Virus record (IMG/VR): IMGVR_UViG_3300030108_000756 | Span: 1 to 25,142 of that record | DNA length: 25,142 nucleotides | Strand: one strand, 5' to 3' | Origin: a virus | Shown here: positions 1,745-21,319 of the stretch, in pieces | Layout: every line of letters starts with the position of its first letter | Position numbering within the stretch: position 1 is the first letter of the stretch | The notes under the pieces: generated by a model | The model's database searches: none | Told to the model about the DNA's origin: nothing | What the model saw: the letters and a program-made list of their open reading frames with translations, nothing else | Program-made: the position numbers and the translations under genes

Positions 1745-2100
1745 TGGCTTTTGTAAATTTACGACTAGATAAAATTGGTAACTTTGCCGAAGATAAAGTT
1801 GAAGAACTTGTGCAATTTGGTGCTGCCAGATTACAACAAAAACTAAAAGGTCAAGAAGTTCCAGTTAACGAAGGAACTATGAGAACTGAATGGTTTCAAA
1901 GACCTGTTTCTAACTTAGAAATAGACTTAATAAATAAACTTGAATATGCAGAACCAGTTACTTTCGGTACTAATATTCCACCCTCTTGGAAAAATGGCTA
2001 TCAACTTTCAACTGCATCTGGAAAACCTATTTCCAAAGATTGGGCTAAAAGATTTATTGAACAGACTATTAGAGATGTACAAAAAAAGGCTGGCAACTAA
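1744..2100 (+). CDS. HK97 gp10-like neck / tail completion protein
   Basis: A 118-residue protein beginning with an amphipathic helix (LDKIGNFAEDKVEELVQFGA, residues 8-27) followed by KLKGQEVPVNEGTMRTEWF. The combination of a basic N-terminal helix, a PV(N/D)xGxxR turn and a short domain containing YAEPVTFG is characteristic of the HK97 gp10 family, which helps join the tail to the head. A Trp/Gly-rich segment (PPSWKNGY) and a C-terminal helix (DWAKRFIEQTIRDVQKK) complete it. The start and stop each overlap the neighbouring genes by one base. Confidence 0.65.
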   Translation: MAFVNLRLDKIGNFAEDKVEELVQFGAARLQQKLKGQEVPVNEGTMRTEWFQRPVSNLEIDLINKLEYAEPVTFGTNIPPSWKNGYQLSTASGKPISKDWAKRFIEQTIRDVQKKAGN

Positions 2101-2516
2101 TGAATACTATTAACGACATAAGAACTGCAATAGAAAGTAGACTTGCTACTGAAATGGCAACTTCACCTGCATACACTGTTGCTTTTCAAAATGTGCCTTT
2201 TACCCCACCAAATAATTCAAGTTGGGTTCAGTCATCAATTACATTTGGAATACACGAAGCAATAACTTTACAGGCACCTACAACAGGTTATAACAAGCAT
2301 AATGGTGAATTATTGATAAATGTGTTCACACCTCAAGGACTTGGTACAGGGGCAAATTACACAATAGCTGAAAGAATAAAAGACTTGTATCATAGACAAA
2401 CTGTAAATAAAATCATTTTTGGTGATACAGTAGGACCAAGCCAAGTTTCACCAGCAAGTCCTCAACCGTTTTTTCAAACTGAATTGAGCTTTATTTTTGA
2501 AGCATGGTTACAATAG
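2100..2516 (+). CDS. Tail terminator protein (gpU / DUF4128-like)
   Basis: A 138-residue protein starting at an ATG overlapped with the preceding stop (TAATG). It has the usual order of tail terminators: an N-terminal helix (INDIRTAIESRLATEMA), a strand with the VAFQNVPFTPP motif, a strand ending in WVQSSITF, a long strand GELLINVFTPQGLGTG followed by a helix (YTIAERIKDLYHR), and a C-terminal strand ELSFIFEAWL. The VPFTPP and LLINVF...G.G..N features fit the DUF4128/terminator group that caps the growing tail tube. It immediately precedes the tube protein gene, which is the expected position. Confidence 0.7.
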   Translation: MNTINDIRTAIESRLATEMATSPAYTVAFQNVPFTPPNNSSWVQSSITFGIHEAITLQAPTTGYNKHNGELLINVFTPQGLGTGANYTIAERIKDLYHRQTVNKIIFGDTVGPSQVSPASPQPFFQTELSFIFEAWLQ

Positions 2517-2541: not shown

Positions 2542-3297
2542 ATGGCTACTGTTTTATCTGGTACTAGCGGAGCACTTTATTACAAACCAGCAGGTACTAA
2601 AGGCACTTTTACTTCTTCAAATGTAACTATTGGAACTGAAACTATTATTGTTGAACCAAATCTTAATTTCAAAGTTGGTGACGGAGTAAAGTTTTCTGTT
2701 ATCAATGCCCAGACAGGTGGTAGCGGTACAGGTACTTTACCAGCAGGTTTAAATAACAGTGATACTTTTTTCATCATTGCCTATACAGCATCTACTGGGG
2801 CTTTACAAGTTTCTGCAACTTTAGGTGGTTCTGCTGTTGATATTACAAATACAGGAACAGCAGCTACACCAAACGAATTTCAAGTAGCTTATGCAGATTT
2901 TGCTGCTGTTGGTGAAGTTCAATCTTGGAGCTTTTCGATTTCTAGAGAACAGATAGATACCACAACAATCGGCCAAACAAGTGGACAATCAGTGCCTTTT
3001 AGAACTTCAATCGCTGGATTTGCTGATGGAGAAGGAACTGCAACTGTATTTGTCACAGATGAGGATTCTGCATTAGCCAATAGAATGGTTCAAGATGTTA
3101 CTCAAAGAAACCAAGTTGGTGCAGCGTTCAAACTTTATATTGATAAGAAACCAACAGAATCCGCTAGTAGAAGCATTGCCTTAGACGCTATGCTTTCTGA
3201 AGCTGAATTTAATGTAAACCCAGATGACGCACAATCTGTAGAAATTACATTTAAACCAACTGAAGCACCTACTTTTGACTTCAGCACTAGCTCTTGA
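2542..3297 (+). CDS. Major tail (tube) protein
   Basis: A 251-residue protein. A short N-terminal strand (LSGTSGALYYK, residues 5-15) is followed by an inserted beta domain (about 27-118) with a FKVGDGVKF...LPAGL pattern, then the tube core. The core runs EVQSWSFSISREQIDTTTIG (125-144), the loop SIAGFADGEGTATVFV (156-171), a helix at 175-188 and a last strand pair SVEITFKPTEAP (232-243). This is the usual gpV-like tube architecture; subunits stack as hexamers round the tape measure. The 25-base leader is AT-rich with no clear ribosome site. Two later genes (11407 and 11862) share the same core pattern. Confidence 0.75.
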   Translation: MATVLSGTSGALYYKPAGTKGTFTSSNVTIGTETIIVEPNLNFKVGDGVKFSVINAQTGGSGTGTLPAGLNNSDTFFIIAYTASTGALQVSATLGGSAVDITNTGTAATPNEFQVAYADFAAVGEVQSWSFSISREQIDTTTIGQTSGQSVPFRTSIAGFADGEGTATVFVTDEDSALANRMVQDVTQRNQVGAAFKLYIDKKPTESASRSIALDAMLSEAEFNVNPDDAQSVEITFKPTEAPTFDFSTSS

Positions 3298-3322
3298 TAC
3301 ATTAAATTAGTTAAAACAATTT

Positions 3323-3679
3323 ATGGCAACCCCAAAACCTCGTCTTTCTCCATTAGAGAAATTAAAAAAAGCTGCAAATCTTCAACCCATCAAAAGAGAG
3401 GTTGAACTTACTAACGGTGAAGTGTTGGAATTTTGGTCAACACCTCTAACCATGGCTGAAAGAGAAAGAGCACAGAAAGGTACAAAAGATGACCTTAATG
3501 CTTTTGCTTTGCAACTCTTAATTCATAAAGCACTGGATGAAAATGGTGTCAGGTTATTCCAAGCTGGTCATGCTGCTGAACTTAAAAATGAATGTAGAGA
3601 TGCAGATTTACAGGCATTAATGCTTGCTGTAATTACAGAACCAGAATATACGGAGGCCGAATCCGACCCAAAAAAATAA
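3323..3679 (+). CDS. Tail assembly chaperone, short form (gpG-like)
   Basis: A 118-residue protein, the zero-frame product of a G/GT-type tail chaperone pair. It begins with a Pro/Lys-rich segment (PKPRLSPLEKLKKAA), continues with a strand pair around REVELTNGEVLEFWSTPLT (26-44), then helices (MAERERAQKG, then NAFALQLLIHKALDENG). It ends in an acidic, Pro-rich stretch just before the stop. The last sense codons lie in the slippery run at 3667-3676. Such proteins bind the tape measure and load tube subunits during tail assembly and are absent from the finished virion. It sits between tube and tape measure genes, as in lambda. Confidence 0.75.
   Translation: MATPKPRLSPLEKLKKAANLQPIKREVELTNGEVLEFWSTPLTMAERERAQKGTKDDLNAFALQLLIHKALDENGVRLFQAGHAAELKNECRDADLQALMLAVITEPEYTEAESDPKK
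3667..3676 (+). other. Programmed -1 frameshift site (tandem slippery heptamers)
   Basis: The sequence CCCAAAAAAA lies immediately before the zero-frame TAA (3677-3679). In the zero frame it reads GAC CCA AAA AAA TAA, so two canonical X_XXY_YYZ heptamers overlap: C_CCA_AAA (3667-3673) and A_AAA_AAA (3670-3676). Slippage back by one base at either one enters the frame that runs to 3861 and gives the same total length. Lambda-type tails use this arrangement to make gpGT. I see no convincing downstream stem-loop or upstream stimulatory site. Confidence 0.8.
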
Positions 3680-3861
3680 AGCTGGAGCTAAAAAAGGATA
3701 ATTATTTATTGCTTCAGTTAGGTGTTGCAAGAGAGTTAAAGTACTCTTTATTTGAATTGCAGCAAAAAATGACTATTGAAGAATTATTTATTTGGTCTGC
3801 TTATTTTGATTTGCTTAATGACGAGCAAGAAAAAATGTTGAAAAAAACCAAATTAAGGTAA
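3676..3861 (+). CDS. -1 frame extension of the tail chaperone (gpT-like; made as a G-T fusion)
   Basis: After the -1 shift the frame adds 61 residues, giving a fusion of about 179 residues encoded by 3323-3861. The added part reads KKDNYLLLQLGVARELKYSL, then FELQQKMTIEELFIWSAYFD, and ends in a Lys-rich tail. The pattern (V/L)ARELGYSLxELxx.MTxEELxxWxAYF is a hallmark of the T domain in phage tail chaperones, so the frame is clearly coding despite having no start of its own. Without it bases 3680-3885 would be empty. The T domain is expected to recruit tail tube subunits to the tape measure complex. Stop TAA is at 3859-3861. Confidence 0.8.
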   Translation: MKLELKKDNYLLLQLGVARELKYSLFELQQKMTIEELFIWSAYFDLLNDEQEKMLKKTKLR

Positions 3862-3885
3862 ACTTAAAACAGTTATTTTTTTATT

Positions 3886-6150
3886 GTGGCTAACGGCGAA
3901 GTTGGAATAAAAATTAAAGTATCAGCGAGGGACGCTGTTAATAACTTAAATAGATTAAAAACTGTAAGTTCACAGTTAAACATAGCATTTAAAAAAGTTG
4001 AATTAGCTGCATCACGTTTGCAAAATAATGCGAGTAGATCATTCCAAAAGTTTGGTGCAAATGTACAAAGAATAAGACAAAAAATAACCAAAGATATGCA
4101 AAAGGTTAAAGGTAGTTTTAATGCTGCTGGACAACTAGGAAGTTTAATAACTGGTGCTGGTTTAGGTTTATTTGCAAAGGCATCATTAGAAACCTCTGTA
4201 AATGCACAAGAATTAGAACTAAGATTAAAGTTGCTTACTGGTAGTTTAATTGGTTATGAAAAGGCTCAAAACATAGCATCAAAAGCGGCTCGTACTTTTG
4301 GAATGTCATCATTAGAGGCATTGGAGGGGGTAACTAATATTGTTGGCAGACTAAAACCTTTAGGACAATCATTAGAAAATATTGAGGACGTATTTTTTGG
4401 TTTTAATACTGCTGCAAAAACTGCTGGTGTATCAACTGTTGAAGCATCAAACGCATTTAGACAATTAGCACAGGCTTTAGGTTCTGGTCGATTAGCTGGT
4501 GATGAATTTAGAAGTGTGTCTGAACAAGTACCAACAATACTAAAACCAATAGCTGAAGAATTGGGTGTTACTCAAGGTGCTTTAAAAGAATTAGCTGCTG
4601 AAGGAAGACTTACTTCAAATGTTGTATTAAGGTCTTTAAGAAAAATAAGAGCAGATGGAAGCGGTCTTATAGCAGATATTGTTAAAGAATCAGATAAGCA
4701 AGTATTAAAAGATTTAAGTAATGCTTTTGAAGATTTGAAAAGATCTGTAGGTGATGCTTTAAAACCTGTAATACTTCCATTGGTCAAAGATATTACAGCG
4801 TTAATGAAACAATTTACTTTACTAAGTCCAAATGTTCAAAAGGTTGTTGTTACTTTTGGTGCTTTGGTAGGTGTTGCTGCTTTAGCCGCCCCTGCAATCG
4901 CTGGTGTAGGACTAGCTATTTCAGCCGTTGGAAGTTTCTTAGCTAGTGGACCTGGAGTAGCTTTACTCGCCTTTTTAGGTGCAAAAACTTTACCTATTAT
5001 TGCTGTACTTGGAGGTTTAGGATTTGCTTTAAGTAAGTTGGCTGGTCATTTTAGAAAAAATCAGGAAACACAGCAAAAATTTCAAGAATTACTTGATACT
5101 GGTTCTCTAAAAGTTTTAAAAGACGCACGTAAAACAGAAGATAATACTCTTTCTCAATTAGCCAATACTAGTGCAAGGGAAGGTGCATCAAATGCTATAA
5201 GAAAACAAATGAAAGAAACTGAGGAAAGAATAAAACAACTAGATAATGAAATTTTAAAATTAGAGCTTTTAAATAAAGAAATGGGAGGAATAACAGTTGG
5301 AGGCATTGAATATAAAATGGATAAAAAAGGATTAATACCAGTTGGGTCTGCAGGTACTGACCCTGAAACAGGTGACGTAGCAAAAACACCACTTTTAGAT
5401 TCTTTACAAAAAGAACAAGAGTTTATGAAAAATGCTTTAAGTATGGGTACAGAAAGAGCAAAAATGGAACAAAGAATAGTAGATCTAGCAAAAGAAAAAA
5501 ATAATTTAAATGAAACTCAAGCACGACAAGCTGTAGAGCAATTAAATGCAGACCAAAAAAGATTAGAAATGAATGAACAGATAAGAGATGTATTGGCTAC
5601 TGGTATGTCCAATGCAGTAATGGGTCTCATAGAAGGTACAAAAACTTTAGGTGAATCATTAGCTGGTATTGCAAAAAATCTTGCCAGTATGTTTTTAAAC
5701 AATGCATTTTCTCAAATGTTTAGTGGTTTTAATTTCTTTGGAGGTGAACAGGGTGGTTATTTAAGGTCTGGTGGTTTTAAGGCTTTTCAATATGGCGGTG
5801 TAGTTAATTCACCTACTCTTGGAATGATTGGTGAAGGCGGTGAGTCTGAATATGTTATTCCCTCCTCTAAGATGGCTGGTGCGATGCAAAGATATTCTTC
5901 TGGTGCAAGAGGTGGTGCAGTTATTCCAGGCGGTTCAGGTGATGCTGGTACACCTTCAGGTTCTTCAGGTAGTGCAGTAGTTGAATATACTGGACCTGTT
6001 TTAAACTTTAATGGTGATGATTATTTGCCAAGGTCAGCAGTACCAGATTTAATTAATACAGCAGCAAAAAGAGGTGCTGATGCTGGACAGTCAAAAATGA
6101 TGAAAACATTTAAAAATTCTAGAAGTCAAAGGGCAAGTATAGGATTATGA
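3886..6150 (+). CDS. Tape measure protein
   Basis: A 754-residue protein starting at GTG, 24 bases after the chaperone fusion ends. A basic coiled N-terminus (1-100) precedes a clear tape-measure N-terminal domain (about 107-250) containing LELRLKLLTGS, ASKAARTFGMSSLEALEGV, LGSGRLAGDEFRSVSEQVP and AEGRLTSNVV. A long hydrophobic Ala/Gly-rich stretch (about 317-387) could insert in the host membrane during DNA delivery. A charged coiled-coil region follows (about 435-560), and a Gly-rich C-terminus carries GGVVNSPTLGMIGEGGESE, typical of these proteins. At about 1.5 angstroms per residue the predicted tail is near 110 nm, on the short side. Its end overlaps the next start (ATGA). Confidence 0.85.
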   Translation: MANGEVGIKIKVSARDAVNNLNRLKTVSSQLNIAFKKVELAASRLQNNASRSFQKFGANVQRIRQKITKDMQKVKGSFNAAGQLGSLITGAGLGLFAKASLETSVNAQELELRLKLLTGSLIGYEKAQNIASKAARTFGMSSLEALEGVTNIVGRLKPLGQSLENIEDVFFGFNTAAKTAGVSTVEASNAFRQLAQALGSGRLAGDEFRSVSEQVPTILKPIAEELGVTQGALKELAAEGRLTSNVVLRSLRKIRADGSGLIADIVKESDKQVLKDLSNAFEDLKRSVGDALKPVILPLVKDITALMKQFTLLSPNVQKVVVTFGALVGVAALAAPAIAGVGLAISAVGSFLASGPGVALLAFLGAKTLPIIAVLGGLGFALSKLAGHFRKNQETQQKFQELLDTGSLKVLKDARKTEDNTLSQLANTSAREGASNAIRKQMKETEERIKQLDNEILKLELLNKEMGGITVGGIEYKMDKKGLIPVGSAGTDPETGDVAKTPLLDSLQKEQEFMKNALSMGTERAKMEQRIVDLAKEKNNLNETQARQAVEQLNADQKRLEMNEQIRDVLATGMSNAVMGLIEGTKTLGESLAGIAKNLASMFLNNAFSQMFSGFNFFGGEQGGYLRSGGFKAFQYGGVVNSPTLGMIGEGGESEYVIPSSKMAGAMQRYSSGARGGAVIPGGSGDAGTPSGSSGSAVVEYTGPVLNFNGDDYLPRSAVPDLINTAAKRGADAGQSKMMKTFKNSRSQRASIGL

Positions 6151-6659
6151 GTATTACAACCATTTGTACATTTCTTGAAATTTATGAAATGGATGAAGAT
6201 GAAAAAACAACAAAGCATAGATTACAAAATGCCAAATTAAATTTAACTGACGAAGATTATCAAAACGCTGGAAACACAATAGAATTTAATGATGAAGATT
6301 TTCATTACATGCCTTTTATTTATGCTGGAACAACAATTAATAAAAGTGGAGATAATATTGAATCTAATATAATCATGGGCAATTCTCCGATATCAATGGC
6401 TAGAGCACAAGAAGCTGTAGCAAATCAATACTTTGCTGAAGTGACTGTTTGTATTGTTGATAATAGTGATCTAGACAGTGTTCAAAGAACTTTAACTTCA
6501 GATGTATGGTTAATTTCTAGTCTTGCTTATGATGCAGAACGACTTGAATTAACTTTAAGTAGTGCGATTGATTCTGTTGGATCTAACATGCCCAATCTAG
6601 TCTTAACTTCCGATTGTGTTGGTGCGTTACCTACTTCAAGTGATATACAAAATAGATGA
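6147..6659 (+). CDS. Minor tail protein, tail-tip (gpL-like position)
   Basis: A 170-residue protein coupled by ATGA overlaps to the tape measure upstream and the NlpC/P60-like gene downstream. It is acidic and beta-rich, with FLEIYEMDED at the start, FHYMPFIYAG (about residues 52-61), SNIIMGNSPISMARAQEAV (73-91), VTVCIVDNSD and TLTSDVWLISSLAYD. It ends in a short segment with a single Cys (LTSDCVGALPT), which recalls the Cys-bearing end of gpL-type tail-tip proteins. Position between tape measure and NlpC/P60 protein matches gpM/gpL of lambda. The family match is weak, so the role is mainly from context. Confidence 0.55.
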   Translation: MSITTICTFLEIYEMDEDEKTTKHRLQNAKLNLTDEDYQNAGNTIEFNDEDFHYMPFIYAGTTINKSGDNIESNIIMGNSPISMARAQEAVANQYFAEVTVCIVDNSDLDSVQRTLTSDVWLISSLAYDAERLELTLSSAIDSVGSNMPNLVLTSDCVGALPTSSDIQNR

Positions 6660-7051
6660 AACCACATCAATTAATTGGTTTACCTTATAGATTAGGCGCT
6701 GACCCTGAAAAACATCATGCAGTAGATTGTTTAACACTAACAATTTCAGTATTAAATTTTTATGGAATAAAATTTTTAAAACGTGAAAAAGAATGGTATA
6801 GACGTTATTTACGAAAAGATTTTTCTATTTTTAAAGAAGTTTTTGATAAGTGGGGAAACGAGACAAAAGATATTAATATAGGTACAGTAGCAATAGTTAA
6901 CAAAGAAGAGGGTTTTGCTCTTGCTGTTTACTACGAAGGAGGATTTTTAATTTGTCAAGAACCAATCGTAAGGTGGACTCCTCAAGACACTTTGGCGGTA
7001 GAAAAATATTATTGCCCGCAGAAATCGAATTATGTAAAACTGTTGGAATAA
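6656..7051 (+). CDS. NlpC/P60-like tail-tip protein, possibly catalytically altered
   Basis: A 131-residue protein with the frame of an NlpC/P60 cysteine peptidase, as in the C-terminal half of lambda gpK. The N-terminal LIGLPYRLGAD...HAVDCLTLT holds the expected nucleophile Cys25 in a DC motif. The second half, INIGTVAIV followed by GFALAVYYEGGFLI, matches the usual GD(V/L)...HVGIYVGGGxLLH region. The catalytic His expected before the LAV segment is Ala here (about residue 88). Either the enzyme is dead and structural, or another residue such as His20 or His21 does the job. The start ATG lies in an ATGA overlap. The end overlaps the next gene by 40-100 bases depending on that gene's start. 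Confidence 0.6.
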   Translation: MKPHQLIGLPYRLGADPEKHHAVDCLTLTISVLNFYGIKFLKREKEWYRRYLRKDFSIFKEVFDKWGNETKDINIGTVAIVNKEEGFALAVYYEGGFLICQEPIVRWTPQDTLAVEKYYCPQKSNYVKLLE

Positions 7052-10000
7052 CTGAAGAAGAATATTGGCTATTTCTAGAATTAACTGACGCTTATAACGG
7101 AAAAAGACCTAAAGAATATGATGAACTCCCTTATGTAACCAATGCTTTTATTGGAACTGCTGTTAGTTGGTTAACAGGTGGCGGTATTCTTGCAAATTTA
7201 GCTTTAGGTGTAATTTTAACGGTTGTTGCCAATTTTTTAACACCAAAACCTAAAGCACCAAAATTACCAGGAAGTTTAACAACTGGAGGGGTAACTGGTA
7301 ATAAAAGATTTGCTCCACAAGAAAATTTTAATTCTGTTCAAGAACTAGCAAAATTAGGTGAAACTGTCCCTTTAATTTTTGCTAAACAAATAAAAAAACA
7401 AAGTGACGGCTACCCAAGTGTTTATGGCGGTGTAAGAGTTTCGACAAGACTTTTGTGGTCACAAATGATTACACACAAAAACGCACAACAACTTAAAGCT
7501 CAATTCATGATAGGGTTAGGAACTTTACCTCAAAGACCTGATTATGAAGGCTATGCTATCGGTGATTTATTACTTAAAAATTATGTATCAAGAAAAATAG
7601 CTTTATATGTTGATAGAAATGGTGGAAGAATAAGTGAAAAACATCATAGATATTCAGAATCAAAACTTGAACCAGATCAAAGAGACAGGCATGGAGGAAA
7701 AATGGATGATGTCATGTCTGTTGATTGGGACCAAGCAGATGATGGAGACGGTGCAGCAACTAACAGCATTGTAAGCGGAACGAGAGCACCAAGTACTCAG
7801 GTACAATTTGGCTCCTATGTTCCCATGCCAAATGCAATGAGGTTTAGATTGCCCTATGAACTAATAATGGTGCAAAAAGATATGAAAAGTGACGTTAAAA
7901 AAGATCAGCGTAGAAAAAGAAAAAAAATTAGAACAAGTTATCCACATTACGCAGCATTTCAACAAGTCGGCACAAAGTCAGGTAGTAATAAATTTGAGAA
8001 AAATGCTGATGTAGATGCTGGAGATAGAATAAGATATAAAGTTTATGATTATGATATATTAGATAAATTTGATGAAGATGACTTTAAGCCTTGGGGTTTA
8101 ACAGATGTAGCAAGTGCAATTAATTCACGTAGAGATTTAATAAATGATAATTTAACAGTTGGAGAATTATATTTATGTGGTTCTGCTTTAGCTGTTTTAT
8201 ATAAAAGAGAATTACCTTTAATTGAAGTTGATGGTGGTCATTGCAATTTTTATTTTAAAGCCGAAACTGATGGTAAGTTAGATACAGAATTTAATCATAA
8301 GCGTTCTGAAAAAGTTAATTTTGTATATGAACGCCTTACCTTACAAAAAGCATCAGTAGGAACAATAAGCAACAATAGAGCTTGTGACGTTACAGAAATC
8401 GGTCTTAAATCTAAAGTTTTTAAACAAATTACATCCTTTCCTAATGTAAACTCTCATCCTGGTGCAGTAGGAGTAAAGGGTGTAAATGCAGATACTAAAA
8501 AGGGTGTTGTTAAAGATTATCAAGATGACAATGCAAGTATAGCTTTAGGCAACATGAGTAAATATATTAACAGATTTAGTTTTTTTAGACTACAAGCAAG
8601 AATAGCTGGAACGGATGACGAATTTGCTTTTATTGATGAAGGAGTGCCATTTTGTATCAAAGGTAATTCACCTACTTTTGTTTATAATTTTATAAGAATT
8701 AATCATATTTGTAGTCCTCCAAAACAATTTGAATTTAGATTTATTCCTTATCCTGGCAATCTTGTAAAAAGAAATTTTATTGATAAAAGAGACGTACGAA
8801 TATTAGATTCAACTATTGATAATTTAGAAAATTATTCAGTAAAAAAACATGGACAAGAGTTTGAGGTTTATTTTAGTGGAGAAGAACGTATTTTATCCAG
8901 AGGTGAAGTTTCTAACAAAGAATGGTATTTAGGTGATGTTGAAAAAAAATCTTCGGGTAAAGTAAAAAAAATTACAAAATCTGGTACAGGTACAGTTCCT
9001 AAAAAGAAAAAATGGGTAAAAGTAGATGAAAGAGATATGGGTAGTGCTCAAGTTGCTAACACTCATTTAAATGATAGACCAACTAATAAAGAGGGGAAAA
9101 TATTTTCTCCCTCAAGAGGTTTTACACGCAATTCATGGTGGTATTGGGGTGATTATAGAAAAGGTGGTTGGAGAAAATCATTCAGAACAGGCAGATTAAC
9201 TCAGTTTTCAGTTAGTGGTGAGAATAAAGTTGAGGTTAAATATAAAGGATATAAATGGAAAAATGGTCCTTTTTTAGGTAGAAAAACTACTGGTGGTAAT
9301 AACGAGAGAGGTAGTTATTATGGTATTAATAAATTTGAATATAAAGCTGTCCCTATAGATCCAGCACAAGTTTATAAAAATGTTTCAGTTAGTGGTGGTT
9401 CTGGATCAGGTTTAAAAGTTCAAATAAAAGTTTATAAAAATAGTAAAAATAAATTTGCTGCTGCAAGATGGAAAATTACAAGTAAAGGAGAAGGGTACAA
9501 ACCAAGAGACAAAGTTAATATTCCAGCTAGAGGACTTTTTAAGGGTTTAAAAAATGTAAGGATAATAAGTGATTTTAACGATTTTGTAACTGATCCTTGG
9601 TATGAAGGCAGAAACTTAAATCCTTATGATGCTATTGCTGATTTTTACCAGTACGATTCAGAACGAAGTAGTCATCAAGATGGTCCTGAACATCAGATAG
9701 TTTATGTAAATGAACAAAGTGATATGGGTAAAAATAATGTGCCAAATTATAGATTTGATGGAATTGCAGGTTTATCAACTGTTGGGATTAGATTAAACAG
9801 TTCAAAAGAATGGAATAATTTTTCTGCCTTATCTGTTTATATTAGAAAAGGCATTGAAATTAAAAGACTAATTAATGATAAAGGTCAAACTGTAACTGAT
9901 GACAATAAAGGGTCTCATGGGGTTACAAGTAAAGGTTTAGGTCCGACTAATAATTTTGCAGAAATAGTACATGCTTTGCTTACTGAGAAAAAATTTGGTT

Positions 10001-10962
10001 TGGCTGGTTTGATTGGTGTAACGTCAGTTGATAAAGACAGATTAATAACTGCTGCAAAGTTTTGTGAAGCTAATGGATTTTATTGGGATGGAGTTATAGC
10101 GGACAAGTTTAATATAAGAGATTTCATTTATCAAAATGCTGTATTTAATCTTTTAGATTTTAGTATTATAGGTGGTAAATTTAGCTTGTTCCCATCTGTA
10201 CCTTTTAACAGTAATTTTGAAATTGATGAGGATGCAGAGCCAACAATAAGAGCTTTATTTACTGATGGTAATACAAGAAATTTAAAAGTAACTTTTCTTT
10301 CACCAGAGGAGAGAGAAAATTTTATTGGTGTTGCTTTGTATAGAGTTGAAACAACAAATGGTTTTCCAGAAACACAATCTATTTCTTTAACAAGTAAAGC
10401 TGCAAACAAAAAAAATAGTGTTATGGAAAAAAGACCGATAGAGACTTATGACATGAGTTCTTTTTGTACAAATGACCAACACGCAAGAATTTTTTTACAG
10501 CACGTTATAAAATTAAGAGAACTTGTAGATCATGGCATTATGTTTGAAACTACACCACAGTCTGCTTTAGGTTTGCAGCCAGGTGAATATATAAGATTTA
10601 TAAGTGAATCAACACACACTCAAAGATTTGAAAATGGCTGTATTACAGAGGATGGATTTGTTCAAAGTGTTGGTGACATTGATCTAAATGGTAAAGAAAT
10701 TTATTTTTGGCAACCTGGAACTGAGGAAGTACAAACTGAAACTGATTTCGAAGTTGAAAATAACAAAACCACACAAAGTAGATTATTTGGAAGTGTTTTC
10801 ACAATAAGGGATACAGAGGAACAAAACAGAATTTATAAAATAGAAAGTCTTACATATACTGAAGAAGGATTTATTCAAGTTTCGGCTTCACATGTTCCTT
10901 TGTTAGATGATGGAAGTATTGCTACAATAAATTATGATGCTAATGATTTTGAGGTAGTCTAA
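6952..10962 (+). CDS. Tail tip / central fibre protein, gpI-gpJ-like fusion
   Basis: A 1336-residue protein, the largest in the window. Residues 21-60 (LPAEIELCKTVGITEEEYW) lead into a hydrophobic Gly/Ala/Leu stretch (66-96) ending in TPKPKAPKLPG. Next comes a segment with LGETVPLIFAKQIK and VYGGVRVSTRLLWSQM, recalling the end of lambda gpI and the start of gpJ. The rest is a long beta-rich tail-tip protein with a Lys/Gly/Trp-rich section (about 660-850) and a C-terminal hub-like part. It should contact the host receptor and close the tail. The TTG at 6952 has a strong AAGGAGG site 9 bases upstream; a second TTG at 7012 would start just before the conserved LPAEIEL segment and is an alternative. 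It ends in TAATG with the next gene. Confidence 0.7.
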   Translation: MSRTNRKVDSSRHFGGRKILLPAEIELCKTVGITEEEYWLFLELTDAYNGKRPKEYDELPYVTNAFIGTAVSWLTGGGILANLALGVILTVVANFLTPKPKAPKLPGSLTTGGVTGNKRFAPQENFNSVQELAKLGETVPLIFAKQIKKQSDGYPSVYGGVRVSTRLLWSQMITHKNAQQLKAQFMIGLGTLPQRPDYEGYAIGDLLLKNYVSRKIALYVDRNGGRISEKHHRYSESKLEPDQRDRHGGKMDDVMSVDWDQADDGDGAATNSIVSGTRAPSTQVQFGSYVPMPNAMRFRLPYELIMVQKDMKSDVKKDQRRKRKKIRTSYPHYAAFQQVGTKSGSNKFEKNADVDAGDRIRYKVYDYDILDKFDEDDFKPWGLTDVASAINSRRDLINDNLTVGELYLCGSALAVLYKRELPLIEVDGGHCNFYFKAETDGKLDTEFNHKRSEKVNFVYERLTLQKASVGTISNNRACDVTEIGLKSKVFKQITSFPNVNSHPGAVGVKGVNADTKKGVVKDYQDDNASIALGNMSKYINRFSFFRLQARIAGTDDEFAFIDEGVPFCIKGNSPTFVYNFIRINHICSPPKQFEFRFIPYPGNLVKRNFIDKRDVRILDSTIDNLENYSVKKHGQEFEVYFSGEERILSRGEVSNKEWYLGDVEKKSSGKVKKITKSGTGTVPKKKKWVKVDERDMGSAQVANTHLNDRPTNKEGKIFSPSRGFTRNSWWYWGDYRKGGWRKSFRTGRLTQFSVSGENKVEVKYKGYKWKNGPFLGRKTTGGNNERGSYYGINKFEYKAVPIDPAQVYKNVSVSGGSGSGLKVQIKVYKNSKNKFAAARWKITSKGEGYKPRDKVNIPARGLFKGLKNVRIISDFNDFVTDPWYEGRNLNPYDAIADFYQYDSERSSHQDGPEHQIVYVNEQSDMGKNNVPNYRFDGIAGLSTVGIRLNSSKEWNNFSALSVYIRKGIEIKRLINDKGQTVTDDNKGSHGVTSKGLGPTNNFAEIVHALLTEKKFGLAGLIGVTSVDKDRLITAAKFCEANGFYWDGVIADKFNIRDFIYQNAVFNLLDFSIIGGKFSLFPSVPFNSNFEIDEDAEPTIRALFTDGNTRNLKVTFLSPEERENFIGVALYRVETTNGFPETQSISLTSKAANKKNSVMEKRPIETYDMSSFCTNDQHARIFLQHVIKLRELVDHGIMFETTPQSALGLQPGEYIRFISESTHTQRFENGCITEDGFVQSVGDIDLNGKEIYFWQPGTEEVQTETDFEVENNKTTQSRLFGSVFTIRDTEEQNRIYKIESLTYTEEGFIQVSASHVPLLDDGSIATINYDANDFEVV

Positions 10963-11381
10963 TGGCAGAAAAAAACTTTCCTAATATTAGAAACGGTCCT
11001 TCGACAAGAACATATACTCCTGGTGAATACCCACAAGCGGTTTTTACAGCGCAAAATGGTGCAGTTTCAGTTATTAGATATGGTATTTTAAAAAGTAATA
11101 CAAGATTAACTTTAGGTTTTAATAATATAGAGGATACAGATGTACTTGAAATTCTTAATTTTTATGAAGAAGTTAATTCTGATTATGACCACATTTATTT
11201 TAGTAAGACCGAACTAAGAGGCATTACGAGTGGAGATTTAAGAAATGTCTATAGAGAAATAGATAGTGATAAAAACCATAAAGTATATTATAGATTTGAA
11301 ACACCACCAGTTGTGACTAGCGTTCAACCAAATAGATCAAATGTTCAATGTAAATTTGTCGGTTTACTAGATGGCCAGTAG
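10962..11381 (+). CDS. Minor tail protein (139 aa, hypothetical)
   Basis: A 139-residue beta-rich protein coupled by a one-base overlap to the tail-tip gene. Visible segments are NGPSTRTYTPGEYPQAVFTA (residues 11-30), VIRYGILKSNTRLTLGFNNI, a short helix VLEILNFYEEVNSDYDHIYF, then a strand-rich C-terminus VYYRFETPPVVTSVQPNRSN. The SNTRLTLGFNNI...F...N...D pattern fits small minor tail proteins that measure a loop against a receptor or hub, but I cannot assign a named family. It leads the set that continues with two tube-like proteins. Confidence 0.5.
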   Translation: MAEKNFPNIRNGPSTRTYTPGEYPQAVFTAQNGAVSVIRYGILKSNTRLTLGFNNIEDTDVLEILNFYEEVNSDYDHIYFSKTELRGITSGDLRNVYREIDSDKNHKVYYRFETPPVVTSVQPNRSNVQCKFVGLLDGQ

Positions 11382-11382
11382 A

Positions 11383-11392
11383 ATGTATTTAA
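11383..11392 (+). promoter_or_regulatory. ATGTNNTTAA element, copy 1
   Basis: ATGTATTTAA ends 14 bases before the ATG at 11407; its first base is 24 bases upstream of the start. Together with the following GTTTTATTTAG it closely resembles the gap before 12758. Whether it is a promoter or a translation signal is unknown. Confidence 0.3.
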
Positions 11393-11406
11393 GTTTTATT
11401 TAGAGC

Positions 11407-11862
11407 ATGGCTAATTATTATTCTGGAACAAAAGGTTCATTATTTGTAGGTGATGCAGATTCAAGTATAGATACGGCGGCTGATGAAGTAGCAAAGGTTC
11501 GATCTTGGTCTTTCTCAGCATCAACAAGCACCTTAGAAACAGTATCTTTAGGAGATCACGATAGAACAATAATTTCAGGAATTTCAAGTGCCTCTGGATC
11601 GGCAAGTATTTATTATTATGCAACGTCAACAACAGGCAATAATAATAGCGGAGTTTTATCAAGCAAAATTATAGATACCATAATACCTTCAACATCTGGT
11701 GAAAGACCAAAAGTAAGATTTAGACTACAATCTGATGCAAACCATAGAATTGACTTTGATGCAGTAATTACAAATTTCAGCATGACTAATGCTGTTGGTG
11801 AAGTTATGTCTGCTAACGTAGAATTTGATGTTGATGGAATACCTTTAAACAATGATTTCTAA
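11407..11862 (+). CDS. Tail-tube-like protein, second copy (compact)
   Basis: A 151-residue protein that repeats the tube-protein plan without the inserted domain. It has an N-terminal strand YSGTKGSLFVGD (5-16; compare LSGTSGALYYK of the major tail protein), then VRSWSFSASTSTLETVSLGD (31-50), the loop TIISGISSASGSASIYYY, a helix around 82-93, and a final pair AVITNFSMTNAVGEVMSANV (119-138) then EFDVDGIPL. The likeness of SWSFS...TVSLG and the final strand pair to the major tail protein is clear by eye. It could form an alternative ring at the tail tip or a decoration. It has no ribosome site and is followed by a one-base overlap with the next tube-like gene. Confidence 0.6.
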   Translation: MANYYSGTKGSLFVGDADSSIDTAADEVAKVRSWSFSASTSTLETVSLGDHDRTIISGISSASGSASIYYYATSTTGNNNSGVLSSKIIDTIIPSTSGERPKVRFRLQSDANHRIDFDAVITNFSMTNAVGEVMSANVEFDVDGIPLNNDF

Positions 11863-12722
11863 TGTCTGTATATTTTGGTTCTACAGGTTTTATAGAATTA
11901 AAGCGTGATGCTTTAAATTCTGATATAGAAACTACACTTGAGCCTGCGGATGTAAATACAAATAGAAAAAGATTTTCAGTAGATAAAGTTTTAGGATCAC
12001 TTATAACAGGAGACCAAGTTGAAATTGAAACTGTAGATGGCAGTAATTTAGAACTTGTTTCAGGCCATAATTTTCCTGATGTAAGAAGATACATTCATAT
12101 TGATGATGTAGGTGGTATAAGACTTTTTAATACTTTTGCAACTGCACTAGCTGGTGAAATTACAGATGCAATTACATTAACTGCACCTTCTTCTTCAAAA
12201 AATATTTTAATTAGGACAAGAAATAATAGATTTAGACCTTTAGCGAAGGTAACTGAATTTGAAATAACTACTAGTAGAGATACTGTAGATATTACAAATT
12301 TAGGAGAAGAGTTTAAAAAGCAATATGAAAATGGTCTTATTTCTGGTCAAGGTACAATTCAAACAATTTGGCAGCATAGGGTTTTTCAAAATGACACAAG
12401 AGATTTTAGCAGTCCTGATTTTCCTGTTTATTTAAGTCAGTTATTAGTTCGTATGCAACAAGGTGCTGATTTTGAAGGAAGGTTTTATATTTATCACGAC
12501 CCAACGCAATCTACAAACAGCGTATGGTATCAGTCAATGTGTGTGATTACAAATGTTGCAGTTAATGTACCAGCCACAGGATTAGTTGAGGCAAGAATAG
12601 AATTTGTCACTAATAGTGAAATCAGACTTCATAACGGAACTTTACCTTCATTTCTATTACAAGAAAATACTGATAGAATATTGCAAGAAGATGGTGAGGG
12701 GATTTTACTTGAAGAAACTTAA
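11862..12722 (+). CDS. Tail-tube-like protein, third copy (with inserted domain)
   Basis: A 286-residue protein starting with the same N-terminal plan (FGSTGFIELKRD, residues 5-16). An inserted beta domain follows (about 35-115) with the LITGDQVEIET and IDDVGGIRLFNTF segments. The tube-like core then comes: KVTEFEITTSRDTVDITNLG (129-148), the loop YENGLISGQGTIQTIW (155-170), a helix near 188-200, strand VITNVAVNVPATGLVEARI (228-246). The inserted domain sits where the major tail protein has one, though the sequences differ. A C-terminal tail has a short internal repeat of the type LLQENTDRILQEDGEGILLE. The ATG overlaps the preceding stop (TAATG). The protein probably joins the tail tip or its attachment to the fibres. 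Confidence 0.55.
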   Translation: MSVYFGSTGFIELKRDALNSDIETTLEPADVNTNRKRFSVDKVLGSLITGDQVEIETVDGSNLELVSGHNFPDVRRYIHIDDVGGIRLFNTFATALAGEITDAITLTAPSSSKNILIRTRNNRFRPLAKVTEFEITTSRDTVDITNLGEEFKKQYENGLISGQGTIQTIWQHRVFQNDTRDFSSPDFPVYLSQLLVRMQQGADFEGRFYIYHDPTQSTNSVWYQSMCVITNVAVNVPATGLVEARIEFVTNSEIRLHNGTLPSFLLQENTDRILQEDGEGILLEET

Positions 12723-12757: not shown

Positions 12758-14866
12758 ATGGCTGATCTACAAATTACACAGTTACCAGAATTGGGATCAG
12801 CATCTTTACAAGCAACTGACCCGATAGCACTTGCGGATGTAAGTGCATCTGAAACTAAAAAAATAACAGCTAAAAATTTTGTACAAGGTGCTATTGCTCT
12901 GGTAGATAACGCAACAGTACCAGCAACTAAATTACAATATCCATTATCAGCAGGGCAGATAGTAACAGCTTCACTAGCTGATGAAGCCGTAACAAATGAA
13001 AAAATTACAGACGCAACAATTACAGGTTCAAAGTTAGTTTCAAATACTATAACCGCAACTCAAATTGGACCTGCGGCGATTGGTGCTAGTGAACTCGGAG
13101 ACAATTCTGTAGATACAGCTTCAATAATAGACTTAAATGTTACTGCAAATAAGTTAGCAGCAAATGCCGTAACGACTAATAAAATTTCCAACAGTGCCGT
13201 AACTTTTGCAAAAACCAATTTTTCTGACGGAGATATTCCTGGTGCAAAACTTACAGCTAATTCTGTGACCGCAACACAAATAGCCCCAAATGCTATTACC
13301 GCAAGTGAATTGGCTAATAATGCTGTCGATACTGCTGCTGTGGCTAATCTTGCGATAACAGCTTCTAAAATAGCCAGCAATACAATAACCGCAAGTCAAA
13401 TAGCTGCAAATGCTATAGGAGCTTCTGAGCTGGCAAATAATGCGGTTGATGCTGCCTCTATAGCAAGTAATGCTGTAACAACTTCTAAAATTTTAAACTT
13501 AAATATAACAACAGACAAATTGGCCGCAGGTTCCGTAATCGCTTCTAAAATAGCTAGTGATACAATTACTGCTTCTCAGATAGCCCCAAATGCTATAGGA
13601 GCTAGTGAATTAGCTAATGATGCAGTTGACACTGCTGCTGTAGCTAATTCTGCTATAACAGATGCTAAAATTTCAACTGTTTCTGGCACAAAAATTACCG
13701 ATGGAACTATAACAGCTACAAAATTAAATACATCAAATATTGATAGATCATTAAATGTAGCTTCAGGTAATTTAGGTATTAATAATGCAGTTACAGGAGG
13801 TGCTTCTGCAATAAGTGGCATAACTTACAATGCAGAAGGATTAATTACTGCGACAACTGCACTTGTTGGGACAGATTTACCTAAAGCAACAGCTTCAGTT
13901 ATTGGTGCTGTAAGTGTACCTAGTACTGGTGGTTTAGCTGTATCTGGGACTGGTGCTTTAACAATAAATAATACAATTACTGCTGCAACAATATCTGGAA
14001 TATCTTATAACGCTTTAGGACTAATCACACAAACTACAGCTTTAGTAGCTGGAGATTTGCCTGTAGCAACAACAACAGCTATAGGCGCAATGTCTGTACC
14101 AACTGCTTCTGCACCTCTTGAAGTAGATGGTGCTGGTGTTTTAACTCTTGCTGACAGTGGAGTTGCTGCTGGTGAATATACAAAAGTAACTGTTTCTACT
14201 CAGGGAATAATTACTGATGCAACAACTTTAGATGCGGCTGATATTCCAAGTTTACCTACCAGCACAATTACCACTGGTACTTTTGGAACTTCTTTTATTG
14301 CTAATGATTCCATAACAATGGATAAAATAGCAAATTTATCCACTGGTTTTATACAAGAAGCATCACCAGATATTTCTGATTTACCAACAGGAGTTTTTTG
14401 GTTACAAGAATCAACAGGTCAATTAAGAATATTTAATGGCAACAGCTTTTTCTCTGTTGGTTTTGGTAGGTTAGCGGAAGAAAACCTTAGATTTTGCGGT
14501 ACATTTAATGCTTCAAATGGAACAATCGTCACACTTACAGCATTTGGAACGTCAGCAGGTTTTACCGTAAGTAATGCTATCCCAGCAGGTACATCAACAT
14601 TAACTGGTGCTTACTTTGTTTGTGTTACTCCAGGAAACGGCACAGCAGTTGTGTCAGCAACCAGCTTTGATGCTGGTGACTGGTGCTTATGTATGGGTGC
14701 TGATAATTGGGATCGAATTGATACTTTATCAGGGCCTGGAAGCGTTTCAGCTTTAAATGATTTATCAGATGTAACAGTATCAAGTCCAACAACAGGTCAA
14801 ATATTAGTACTGCAATCAGGTGGTCAGTTTGCGAATGTTTCGGTAATAAGTGGAGGAACTTACTAA
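12758..14866 (+). CDS. Tail fibre with decapeptide-repeat shaft
   Basis: A 702-residue, Ala/Thr/Ile/Ser-rich fibre protein. The N-terminus (LQITQLPELGSASLQATDPI) is of a type I recall at the start of cyanophage fibres and should attach to the virion. Residues 77-308 are 23 decapeptide repeats of the form A(I/V)xASxIAxN. Residues about 352-500 carry three looser 60-residue modules (ISGITYNAEGLIT, ISGISYNALGLIT and TKVTVSTQGIIT at about 352, 412 and 475). The C-terminal part holds RFCGTFNASNGTIVTLTAFG and a Cys/Trp-containing AGDWCLCMGADNWDRIDT, then LNDLSDVTVSSPTTGQIL. The fold is probably a trimeric beta-structure. There is no chaperone domain or autocleavage motif that I can see. The receptor-binding part is likely C-terminal. 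Confidence 0.75.
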   Translation: MADLQITQLPELGSASLQATDPIALADVSASETKKITAKNFVQGAIALVDNATVPATKLQYPLSAGQIVTASLADEAVTNEKITDATITGSKLVSNTITATQIGPAAIGASELGDNSVDTASIIDLNVTANKLAANAVTTNKISNSAVTFAKTNFSDGDIPGAKLTANSVTATQIAPNAITASELANNAVDTAAVANLAITASKIASNTITASQIAANAIGASELANNAVDAASIASNAVTTSKILNLNITTDKLAAGSVIASKIASDTITASQIAPNAIGASELANDAVDTAAVANSAITDAKISTVSGTKITDGTITATKLNTSNIDRSLNVASGNLGINNAVTGGASAISGITYNAEGLITATTALVGTDLPKATASVIGAVSVPSTGGLAVSGTGALTINNTITAATISGISYNALGLITQTTALVAGDLPVATTTAIGAMSVPTASAPLEVDGAGVLTLADSGVAAGEYTKVTVSTQGIITDATTLDAADIPSLPTSTITTGTFGTSFIANDSITMDKIANLSTGFIQEASPDISDLPTGVFWLQESTGQLRIFNGNSFFSVGFGRLAEENLRFCGTFNASNGTIVTLTAFGTSAGFTVSNAIPAGTSTLTGAYFVCVTPGNGTAVVSATSFDAGDWCLCMGADNWDRIDTLSGPGSVSALNDLSDVTVSSPTTGQILVLQSGGQFANVSVISGGTY
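12986..13681 (+). repeat. Decapeptide (30-bp period) repeat tract within the fibre gene
   Basis: About 232 codons made of 23 units of consensus A(I/V)xASxIAxN, all ten residues long except one 12-residue unit (about residues 157-168, at the phase change near 13226-13261). Units fall into a higher-order set of four (TITASQIAPN, AIGASELANN, AVDTAAVANL, AITASKIASN) that recurs. The 17-mer ATAGCCCCAAATGCTAT occurs twice, 300 bp apart, equal to ten units, which points to past slippage or unequal exchange. Elsewhere synonymous changes are many, so the tract is old. Confidence 0.85.
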
Positions 14867-19360: not shown

Positions 19361-19973
19361 AATAAAAGAAGTTTACGTTCCAAAAATTAGATTATGGGAA
19401 GTACAGCCACCGATATTAGATTTAATCACTAAACCAGTTGTAGATATTCCAGGATGCGTTGATGCTCATAGAAATAACCTTACAGGACTTATTAACGAAG
19501 ATGAACTAGGAACATATCAAGCTTGTGGTACTTTTAGTATTCCTAGCTTTGAACCGCTTGAATATAACCCTGCAAATTTCATTTATACTGCCCCAGCACA
19601 ACAGCCACAACAAAAACAAGAGCAACCGCAACAACAAGAACGCAAGACAACAAAAAAGAAAAAAAAAGAAGAACTAGAAATAGATCCATGCCCTCCAAAA
19701 AATCCACAATATAGACCTGGCGATTACAGAAATGATAAAAAAATTGAAAGATTGGTAAAATGGGAAAGATCCTCCTCAGATGGTATTAGTTGTGTCGGAG
19801 TCTGGGAAAAAGTACCATTCAGAGAAAGCTTTATTGGTACGCCTCAAGTTCTTATTTCAACTACTGTGTTGGGTGTGGTTGCTGGTGGGTCTGCATTATT
19901 GGCTCCTCTGATAAAAAAAGCAATTTCTGAAATATTTAAAAAGATAAAAAAGAAACTGACAAAGAAAAAGTAA
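19338..19973 (+). CDS. Pro/Gln/Lys-rich membrane-anchored protein (211 aa)
   Basis: A 211-residue protein with distinct parts. The Pro/Ile/Val-rich N-terminus (1-85) has EVYVPKIRLWEVQPPILDLI and Cys40 and Cys63. A low-complexity linker follows (88-111, Gln/Pro then poly-Lys), then a small domain (116-165) with Cys118 and Cys152 and SSSDGISCVGVWEKVPF. A C-terminal hydrophobic segment (about 171-192, VLISTTVLGVVAGGSALLAP) is followed by a very basic end. I recall this type of protein in cyanophages but not a function. The C-terminal anchor with a Lys-rich tail suggests an inner-membrane protein, or a virion component inserted on entry. Confidence 0.55.
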   Translation: MTKIPKIEIKEVYVPKIRLWEVQPPILDLITKPVVDIPGCVDAHRNNLTGLINEDELGTYQACGTFSIPSFEPLEYNPANFIYTAPAQQPQQKQEQPQQQERKTTKKKKKEELEIDPCPPKNPQYRPGDYRNDKKIERLVKWERSSSDGISCVGVWEKVPFRESFIGTPQVLISTTVLGVVAGGSALLAPLIKKAISEIFKKIKKKLTKKK

Positions 19974-20054
19974 CATTGTTACGGTTTAAAAACATATACA
20001 AAGTGATGATATTCTAATGATAAACTATGAAGGCAATAACATTTATGAGGTTTT

Positions 20055-20366
20055 ATGAAACTTACAATGGAAAACAAAACAGGTCATCATCTTGAAGATA
20101 ATGATGAATTTTATTTTGACAATGATATTTTGAATGATAAAGTTCATATATTTTTTAAATCGAGTCGAAACAGCCTTGATGAATATTCAATGTCAGGTCA
20201 TCAATTTTTAAATTCTTTTGAACTTTCTATTAATACTTTAGGTATTGAACATGACACAATGCTAAAAAAAATTGGCAATATTATCTTTGCAAGAATCAAG
20301 CAACTTGAAAAAGAATATGAGATGATTCGTTCATACGAAGATTCTCATAAAAAGGAGGCAGTATGA
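20055..20366 (+). CDS. Small acidic protein (103 aa, hypothetical)
   Basis: A 103-residue acidic protein. The N-terminus (residues 11-40) is rich in Asp, Glu and His (GHHLEDNDEFYFDNDILNDK), followed by HIFFKSSRNSLDEYSMSGHQ and a helical C-terminus (MLKKIGNIIFARIKQLEKEY). GAGG lies at 20047-20050, a short spacing from the ATG. It is coupled by ATGA to the ParB-like gene and so is likely co-made with it, which suggests a partner. No family is recognised. Confidence 0.5.
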   Translation: MKLTMENKTGHHLEDNDEFYFDNDILNDKVHIFFKSSRNSLDEYSMSGHQFLNSFELSINTLGIEHDTMLKKIGNIIFARIKQLEKEYEMIRSYEDSHKKEAV

Positions 20367-21319
20367 CCTCTCAAGTACAAGATGCCCTTTCAACTATCTA
20401 TGAGGACATAGAATATTCTCTTGAATTTATTACACCAGAAAAAGCACAATTTTATTTAACAAAAAACTTTGAAAATAATCGCAAGATTAGCAGAAATAAT
20501 CTTGAAGAATTAAAAAGAGAGATGAAAAATAGTCGTTTCATCTTATCTGACTCTGCCATTTGTTTTGATACAGATGGCACTCTTGTCAATGGTCAACATA
20601 GATTGATGGCTGTTGTTCAAACAGGAATGACTCAACCATTTCTTGTTGTCAAAAATATGCCTAGCAAATCCAAGCAAATAATGGATGTTGGTAAATCCAG
20701 GTGTATGTCTGATCGTATTACTGTTAGTGGTGTCAAGATCAGCAGAAGAGATTGTGCAACTATAAGACACGCTATGGCTGCAATAAATAGTACAACTGGT
20801 ACTGAGCAGTATTCAAGACCATGCCATGATGCCATAGTTGCTGAAACTTATTTAAAACATAATCAGTTTCTTTATCTTATGAGTAAAGTCTGTCCTACTA
20901 ATACAACTAGGGTTAGATCATTTTTTCTTGGAGCAGGGTTGAAAATTTATGCTGAAATGACTTATAACAGTCAAATCACAAGAAACAAAAAATACAACCA
21001 TACGATGAATCCTAAAGAAAGGGCATTACATTGGTTAAATATTGTCACTACAGGCATGGCGAGTCCTATTGATGGTGTTGATAGAGATATTAAACCATGT
21101 GATAGAGCAGCACAGATTATTTTTACCAAGTCTTGTGACAGCAGCATAAAAAGATCATATTGGAATAGTGCTGAAGCCTTTGCTCTTACTGTTAGAGCAG
21201 CCCATAATTTTATGATTGGTTTAGATACTCAGTTTCTTAAAGTTCCTAAAGATGATCCCTTCAGGGATTTCATTGAGTTGCCATCAACCAACAAAATAAT
21301 GACTATGGCATCAAATTGA
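20363..21319 (+). CDS. ParB-like nuclease-domain phage protein
   Basis: A 318-residue protein whose first 105 residues look like a ParB/Srx-type domain: FITPEKAQFYLTKNFENNR (22-40), RNNLEELKREMKNSRFI, CFDTDGTLVNGQHRLMAVVQ (67-86) and LVVKNMPSKSKQIMDVGKSR. The NGQHRL motif is the signature of a group of phage proteins usually annotated as ParB-like nuclease domain proteins. The C-terminal two thirds are helical with DRAAQIIFTKSCDSS and no known domain I can name. ParB-like domains bind or cleave DNA or act on nucleotides; which applies is unknown. A strong AAGGAGG site (20352-20358) precedes the ATG. No partner ParA is visible. Confidence 0.65.
   Translation: MTSQVQDALSTIYEDIEYSLEFITPEKAQFYLTKNFENNRKISRNNLEELKREMKNSRFILSDSAICFDTDGTLVNGQHRLMAVVQTGMTQPFLVVKNMPSKSKQIMDVGKSRCMSDRITVSGVKISRRDCATIRHAMAAINSTTGTEQYSRPCHDAIVAETYLKHNQFLYLMSKVCPTNTTRVRSFFLGAGLKIYAEMTYNSQITRNKKYNHTMNPKERALHWLNIVTTGMASPIDGVDRDIKPCDRAAQIIFTKSCDSSIKRSYWNSAEAFALTVRAAHNFMIGLDTQFLKVPKDDPFRDFIELPSTNKIMTMASN

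Follow-up and report, generated by a model that had tools for sequence, protein, structure and literature searches.

Two ancient tail tube paralogs behind the tail-tip gene of marine phages and their possible role as fibre-bearing tip rings

Why would a phage encode two further tube-like proteins behind its tail-tip gene? The question is raised by the IMG/VR virus record IMGVR_UViG_3300030108_000756, the whole of which (25,142 bases) is referred to here as the window. Its tail module encodes a major tail (tube) protein, A, and two further proteins of similar plan, B and C, which lie between the genes for a J-like tail tip or hub protein (J) and a small minor tail protein (D139) on one side and the tail fibre gene on the other (Table 1). 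A first-pass annotation of this DNA noticed by eye that A, B and C share one plan, held a further tube protein to be unexpected behind the tip gene, and proposed that B and C may be duplicated tube subunits that make up rings of their own at the tip or a collar on which fibres dock.

The three genes were present as that annotation had delimited them. Direct BLASTP comparison of the proteins gave short matches at the core motif only, with 10 of 23 residues identical between A and B over VGEVQSWSFSISREQIDTTTIGQ / VAKVRSWSFSASTSTLETVSLGD (E 2e-4), and with E values of 0.005 for A-C and 0.08 for B-C. Families of A, B and C were built from marine IMG/VR relatives and their profiles were then compared by hhalign. 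The A-B comparison gave a probability of 97.6% (E 2.7e-12, score 79.9), A-C 96.5% (E 8.4e-10, score 70.7) and B-C 96.4% (E 1.3e-9, score 65.7). Thirty column shuffles per pair scored at most 21.2, reversed profiles at most 19.4, and none of 52 control pairs drawn from 11 families of neck and tail proteins in these phages exceeded 18.0. The likeness seen by eye is therefore borne out, and the possibility that the shared motif might be chance is countered by profile scores of 65.7-79.9 against controls of at most 21.2. In PHROGs, families named 'major tail protein' were matched by A at 1.8e-6 and by B at 5e-11 (PHROG 10528) and 4e-4; C alone had no such match below 0.01, and 8 of 36 C relatives did. 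B and C are both kin in sequence to a recognised major tail protein. The window's B and C found no match in isolate phages by tblastn, and the best PDB sequence match was the PBSX tube-like protein XkdM for the B profile (E 0.049), with none for the C profile.

Structure prediction and fold comparison, proposed in the first-pass annotation as a check, also matched B and C to tube proteins. AlphaFold (AF2) models were obtained at a predicted local distance difference test score (pLDDT) of 67 each. The B model had 32 PDB matches at E<1e-3 by Foldseek, with tail tubes first and related tail and injection-system tubes also among them, and its VIA Z scores were 11.1 for a monocin, 10.9 for a gene transfer agent (GTA) and 10.2 for lambda V. 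The C model scored a VIA Z of 11.4 with the R4C tail tube protein and about 10 with the monocin, the SaPI1 neck, 80alpha (10.0) and the GTA; the top VIA rows were all tube or tube-like, and its best Foldseek match was the T1 tail tube (6.6e-4). Against a viral library, the C model gave few significant matches, mostly to unnamed phage proteins. These models predict a tube-domain beta-sandwich fold for B and for C, each of which contains one tube core and retains the whole of it, including the conserved strand motifs. The claim that A and C each have an insert and B has none proved correct: about 105 extra residues follow the first strand in A and C, at the same point of the fold. A common origin of these inserts is unsupported (score 14.0, best shuffle 14.1). 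C also ends in a tail of repeats of the type LLQEDG.ILLE, a motif that 119 of 150 relatives of C carry and that all other open reading frames of the examined loci lack.

The presence of two extra tube paralogs behind the tip gene is constant across a large group of marine phages and not an oddity of the window. The counts that follow are not population frequencies, since many of the loci were selected for their likeness to A, B or C. B and C stand directly behind J or D139, and before the fibre gene, in 100 marine loci that have this J type and at least 2.6 kb behind J (75 distinct J ends). There were four exceptions: a locus that is truncated, and the J genes, only distantly related, of S-CBS1, S-CBS3 and S-LBS1, to whose tail proteins the J-like protein of the window is akin. 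All 34 IMG/VR loci with A and 11 kb downstream carry B and C (28 distinct A sequences). Across the 125 complete B-C loci, which hold 104 distinct B-C sequences, the gap from B to C is -4 to +3 nt. The gap from D139 to B is usually 26 nt, and that from C to the fibre gene 24-35 nt. A occupies the canonical tube-gene position between the terminator and the chaperone-position gene, whereas B and C follow J and D139 in all loci. The genes behind J in S-CBS3 and KBS-S-2A were examined as hidden forms of B or C and were not related to them.

Synechococcus phage KBS-S-2A has a tube protein 70% identical to A, with a related terminator and chaperone-position gene, but a different tip of more lambda-like gene order and no B, C or other extra tube paralog. 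S-2L has a distant A (32%), a different tip and no B or C. Since both phages combine A-type tubes with other tips and have neither B nor C, the B-C pair belongs to the tip/fibre module and travels with the tip. We retain A as the tube protein because of its canonical place and because its homologue is the only tube gene found in KBS-S-2A.

All of these genes are under constraint, with median ratios of nonsynonymous to synonymous change (dN/dS) of 0.083 for A, 0.109 for C, 0.172 for the fibre, 0.385 for B, 0.395 for D139 and 0.419 for M170, so that the constraint on C is as tight as that on the tube protein, and B resembles the tip proteins in its rate of change. Fibre identity between loci correlated with that of C at r=0.91, D139 at 0.81, J at 0.69 and B at 0.52. 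The correlation of C with the fibre was 0.75 given D139 and J, and that of B 0.04 given D139, J and C. In the set of loci selected by B only, the fibre again correlated best with C, but by a smaller margin (0.77 versus 0.71 for D139). Being constrained like the tube protein and following the fibre in evolution, C is likelier than B to be the fibre anchor.

A tree of the cores placed A, B and C in separate old clades on long stems (100/98, 91/83, 100/99); built from 149 columns, it cannot give their branching order. The three old clades leave a recent duplication of A within this lineage unsupported. The notion of duplicated tube subunits is thus well supported by profiles and models as far as the tube fold goes, with the refinement that the duplications are old. 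The profile closest to B is that of a tube protein group from Synechococcus phage S-H1 and marine contigs akin to it (99.5%, 1.8e-22; 8e-11 against C). S-H1 encodes two tandem tail tube proteins of about 140 aa between terminator and chaperone (19606-20447), both named 'hypothetical protein' in GenBank, and tandem tube proteins at this ordinary position also occur in most of 80 IMG/VR loci (L224-L303). That the adjacent matches in S-H1 are one frameshifted gene is ruled out by full-length proteins of 138 and 140 aa in many contigs. Like the window, these genomes have a second tube paralog, but both copies are at the ordinary tube position, and no B-C pair behind J was seen in the examined stretches of S-H1 and its IMG/VR relatives. 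Given these tandem copies and the closeness of B to their profile, tube-gene duplication is recurrent in these phages.

Tube-derived tip rings with fibres are so far mainly known from phage T5. Its protein p140 is a duplicate of the tube protein, to which it is 9% identical; it lies between the tube and the distal tail protein, and its C-terminus touches the p132 collar, which bears the lateral fibres (PMC10038345). In DT57C, the fibre N-termini lie in a groove between the p140-type ring (TTMP) and the collar (p132/LtfC) (PMC10713586). Like B and C, p140 is a tube-protein duplicate encoded by a separate gene of the tip module, and it stands at the level of lateral-fibre attachment (PMC10038345, PMC10713586). 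T5 has one trimeric, pseudo-hexameric p140 ring without a decoration domain and a p132 dodecamer that holds the fibres, whereas the window has two single-domain paralogs, one with an insert, and a tip with a J-like hub. B and C share with p140 the place of a tube paralog in the tip module apart from the tube gene, but not the trimeric ring with two tube domains per chain; having one core each, they are p140-like in plan and are not filed as members of the p140 family. The T5 authors called p140/p132 a landmark of T5-like phages only.

We propose that B and C are ancient tail tube paralogs turned tail-tip parts, and that the long tube is built of A. Each would form a tube-like ring, with six tube domains around the channel, located between the last A ring and the tip of D139, M170 and J. 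By analogy with p140, C would face A and the fibre and B would face the tip, in which case the gene order J-D139-B-C-fibre would read from the tip upwards. The fibre might attach to the outer face of the C ring, or to a collar that surrounds this ring, perhaps via the flexible C-terminal tail of C. We place this model as a whole, with tube-derived tip rings and the fibre at C, just on the likely side. The interpretation in the first-pass annotation therefore stands in part: its duplicated tube fold is upheld, and its proposed tip rings or fibre-docking collar would fit the fixed place of B and C between J/D139 and fibre, their absence from KBS-S-2A and the T5 precedent. A more specific form, a two-storey adaptor of two different tube-derived rings, with the fast-evolving B on the tip side and the conserved C on the tube and fibre side, joining one type of tube to exchangeable tips and carrying the fibres, is possible, if somewhat short of probable.

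Three other readings were weighed. B and C might be alternative or mixed subunits of the long tube, placed among A or replacing it, with no special role at the tip. The tandem tube proteins of S-H1 and most of the 80 IMG/VR loci suggest that two-paralog tubes may exist, and it is their group whose profile is closest to B. Moreover, ORF20 of Microcystis phage Mic1, the abundant tail tube protein of its virions, is encoded after the tip genes (PMC7156551), so a position behind these genes is no proof against a main-tube role, and the expectation of no second tube protein there holds for the lambda-like order but fails as a universal rule. ORF20 (8975-9613) and the tape measure lie at opposite ends of the tail cluster, the Mic1 J is distantly related, and kinship of ORF20 with B or C was not detectable by profile comparison. 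Against mixed tubes, KBS-S-2A, which combines A with another tip, lacks B and C, the evolutionary rate of B matches that of the tip proteins and not that of A, and the pair always stands between tip and fibre genes; we consider this reading quite unlikely.

B and C might instead be assembly factors or initiation rings that start the polymerisation of A on the tip and make no contact with the fibre. The constraint on C, which equals that on A, is as expected for a protein that docks on A, but the adjacency and co-variation of C and the fibre would be left unexplained, and this seems unlikely. Still less probable, to the point of being very unlikely, is that B and C no longer form rings and act either outside the tube, as decoration or receptor-binding proteins with a tube fold, or as fibre chaperones. 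Many tail proteins have tube-like folds, C has an extra domain and a flexible tail, and B is variable (median identity 51% over all loci with B and fibre); both proteins nevertheless keep the whole core with its conserved strand motifs. Several points also weigh against the tip rings that we favour. The models of B and C are of modest confidence, many of the loci share the selection bias noted above, and the two proteins are known from genes and single-chain predictions. The co-variation of C and fibre may be explicable by linkage alone, as the two are neighbours. The insert and tail of C were matched to no docking domain, and no homolog of T5 p132 was identified, with no search aimed at p132 made.

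In SPP1, two major tail proteins, gp17.1 and gp17.1*, occur in one siphophage tail. They have a frameshift origin and come from the same gene, so they are not paralogs, and both are in the tube. T4 gp54 / gp48, as described where they are cited in PMC10038345, resemble the proposed arrangement in forming an extra tube-like ring between the tip and the first tube ring; unlike in the window phage, the tail is contractile and the proposed role is in sheath initiation.

How side fibres are fixed on siphophage tails outside T5-like phages is largely open, and B and C offer a concrete candidate in a widespread marine group, with tube proteins re-used as adaptors. The two-storey adaptor, if true, would mean that a fibre-anchoring collar of the T5 p140 kind had been built a second time, independently, in phages that are not T5-like. 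Matches to 'major tail protein' families behind a tip gene should not be annotated as tube.

Table 1. Features of the tail module in the window
Feature	Position	Strand	Basis or remark
Tail terminator	2100-2516		PF13554 8e-12
A, major tail (tube) protein, 251 aa, tube core + ~105-residue insert	2542-3297	+	PHROG 1407/158 major tail protein; between terminator and chaperone-position gene
Insert of A (residues 17-121), separating the first strand from the core	2590-2904	+	Alignment and hhalign boundaries
A core motif SWSFSISREQIDTTTIG	2923-2973	+	
Small gene, chaperone position	3323-3679		
Tape measure, GTG start	3886-6150		
M170	6147-6659		
NlpC-like protein	6656-7051		Weak Pfam match
J-like tail tip / hub protein	6952-10962	+	PHROG 27845 tail protein 1.8e-20; true start uncertain, 6952-7012 or later
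D139, small minor tail protein	10962-11381	+	PHROG 15525 minor tail protein 2e-10
B, tail-tube paralog without insert, 151 aa	11407-11862	+	hhalign to A and C; AF2 model resembles tube proteins
B core motif SWSFSASTSTLETVSLGD	11503-11556	+	
C, tail-tube paralog with insert and C-terminal tail, 286 aa	11862-12722	+	hhalign to A and B; AF2 model
Insert of C (residues 17-124)	11910-12233	+	pLDDT mostly 83-90 in residues 21-120
C core motif EFEITTSRDTVDITNLG	12255-12305	+	
C-terminal tail of C, short acidic/hydrophobic repeats LLQE..ILQEDG.GILLE	12648-12722	+	pLDDT <50 from residue 262
Tail fibre, 702 aa, 35 nt behind C	12758-14866	+	PHROG 892 tail fiber 8.5e-31

The contig PANU01000102.1, binned in a Flavobacteriaceae metagenome-assembled genome, consists of this same tip module (K131-J-D139-B-C-fibre). 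It was the only match in a genome scan and is probably a mis-binned phage contig, or else a hint of the host; it was not used as a host call. In the window, about 200 nt (3679-3886) separate the chaperone-position gene from the tape measure; one would expect a second chaperone product, made by frameshifting, to be encoded there. D139 is probably a lambda-M-like tip ring, a label drawn from its PHROG match and gene position, as comparison with solved structures gave no tail-related match. It lies behind J in most relatives and before M170, the place of lambda M, in others, among them several loci selected by A. D139 thus appears as one tip gene that has moved while its neighbours kept their order, B and C remaining behind J, and it is present in two copies in locus L223 and in S-CBS1/3.
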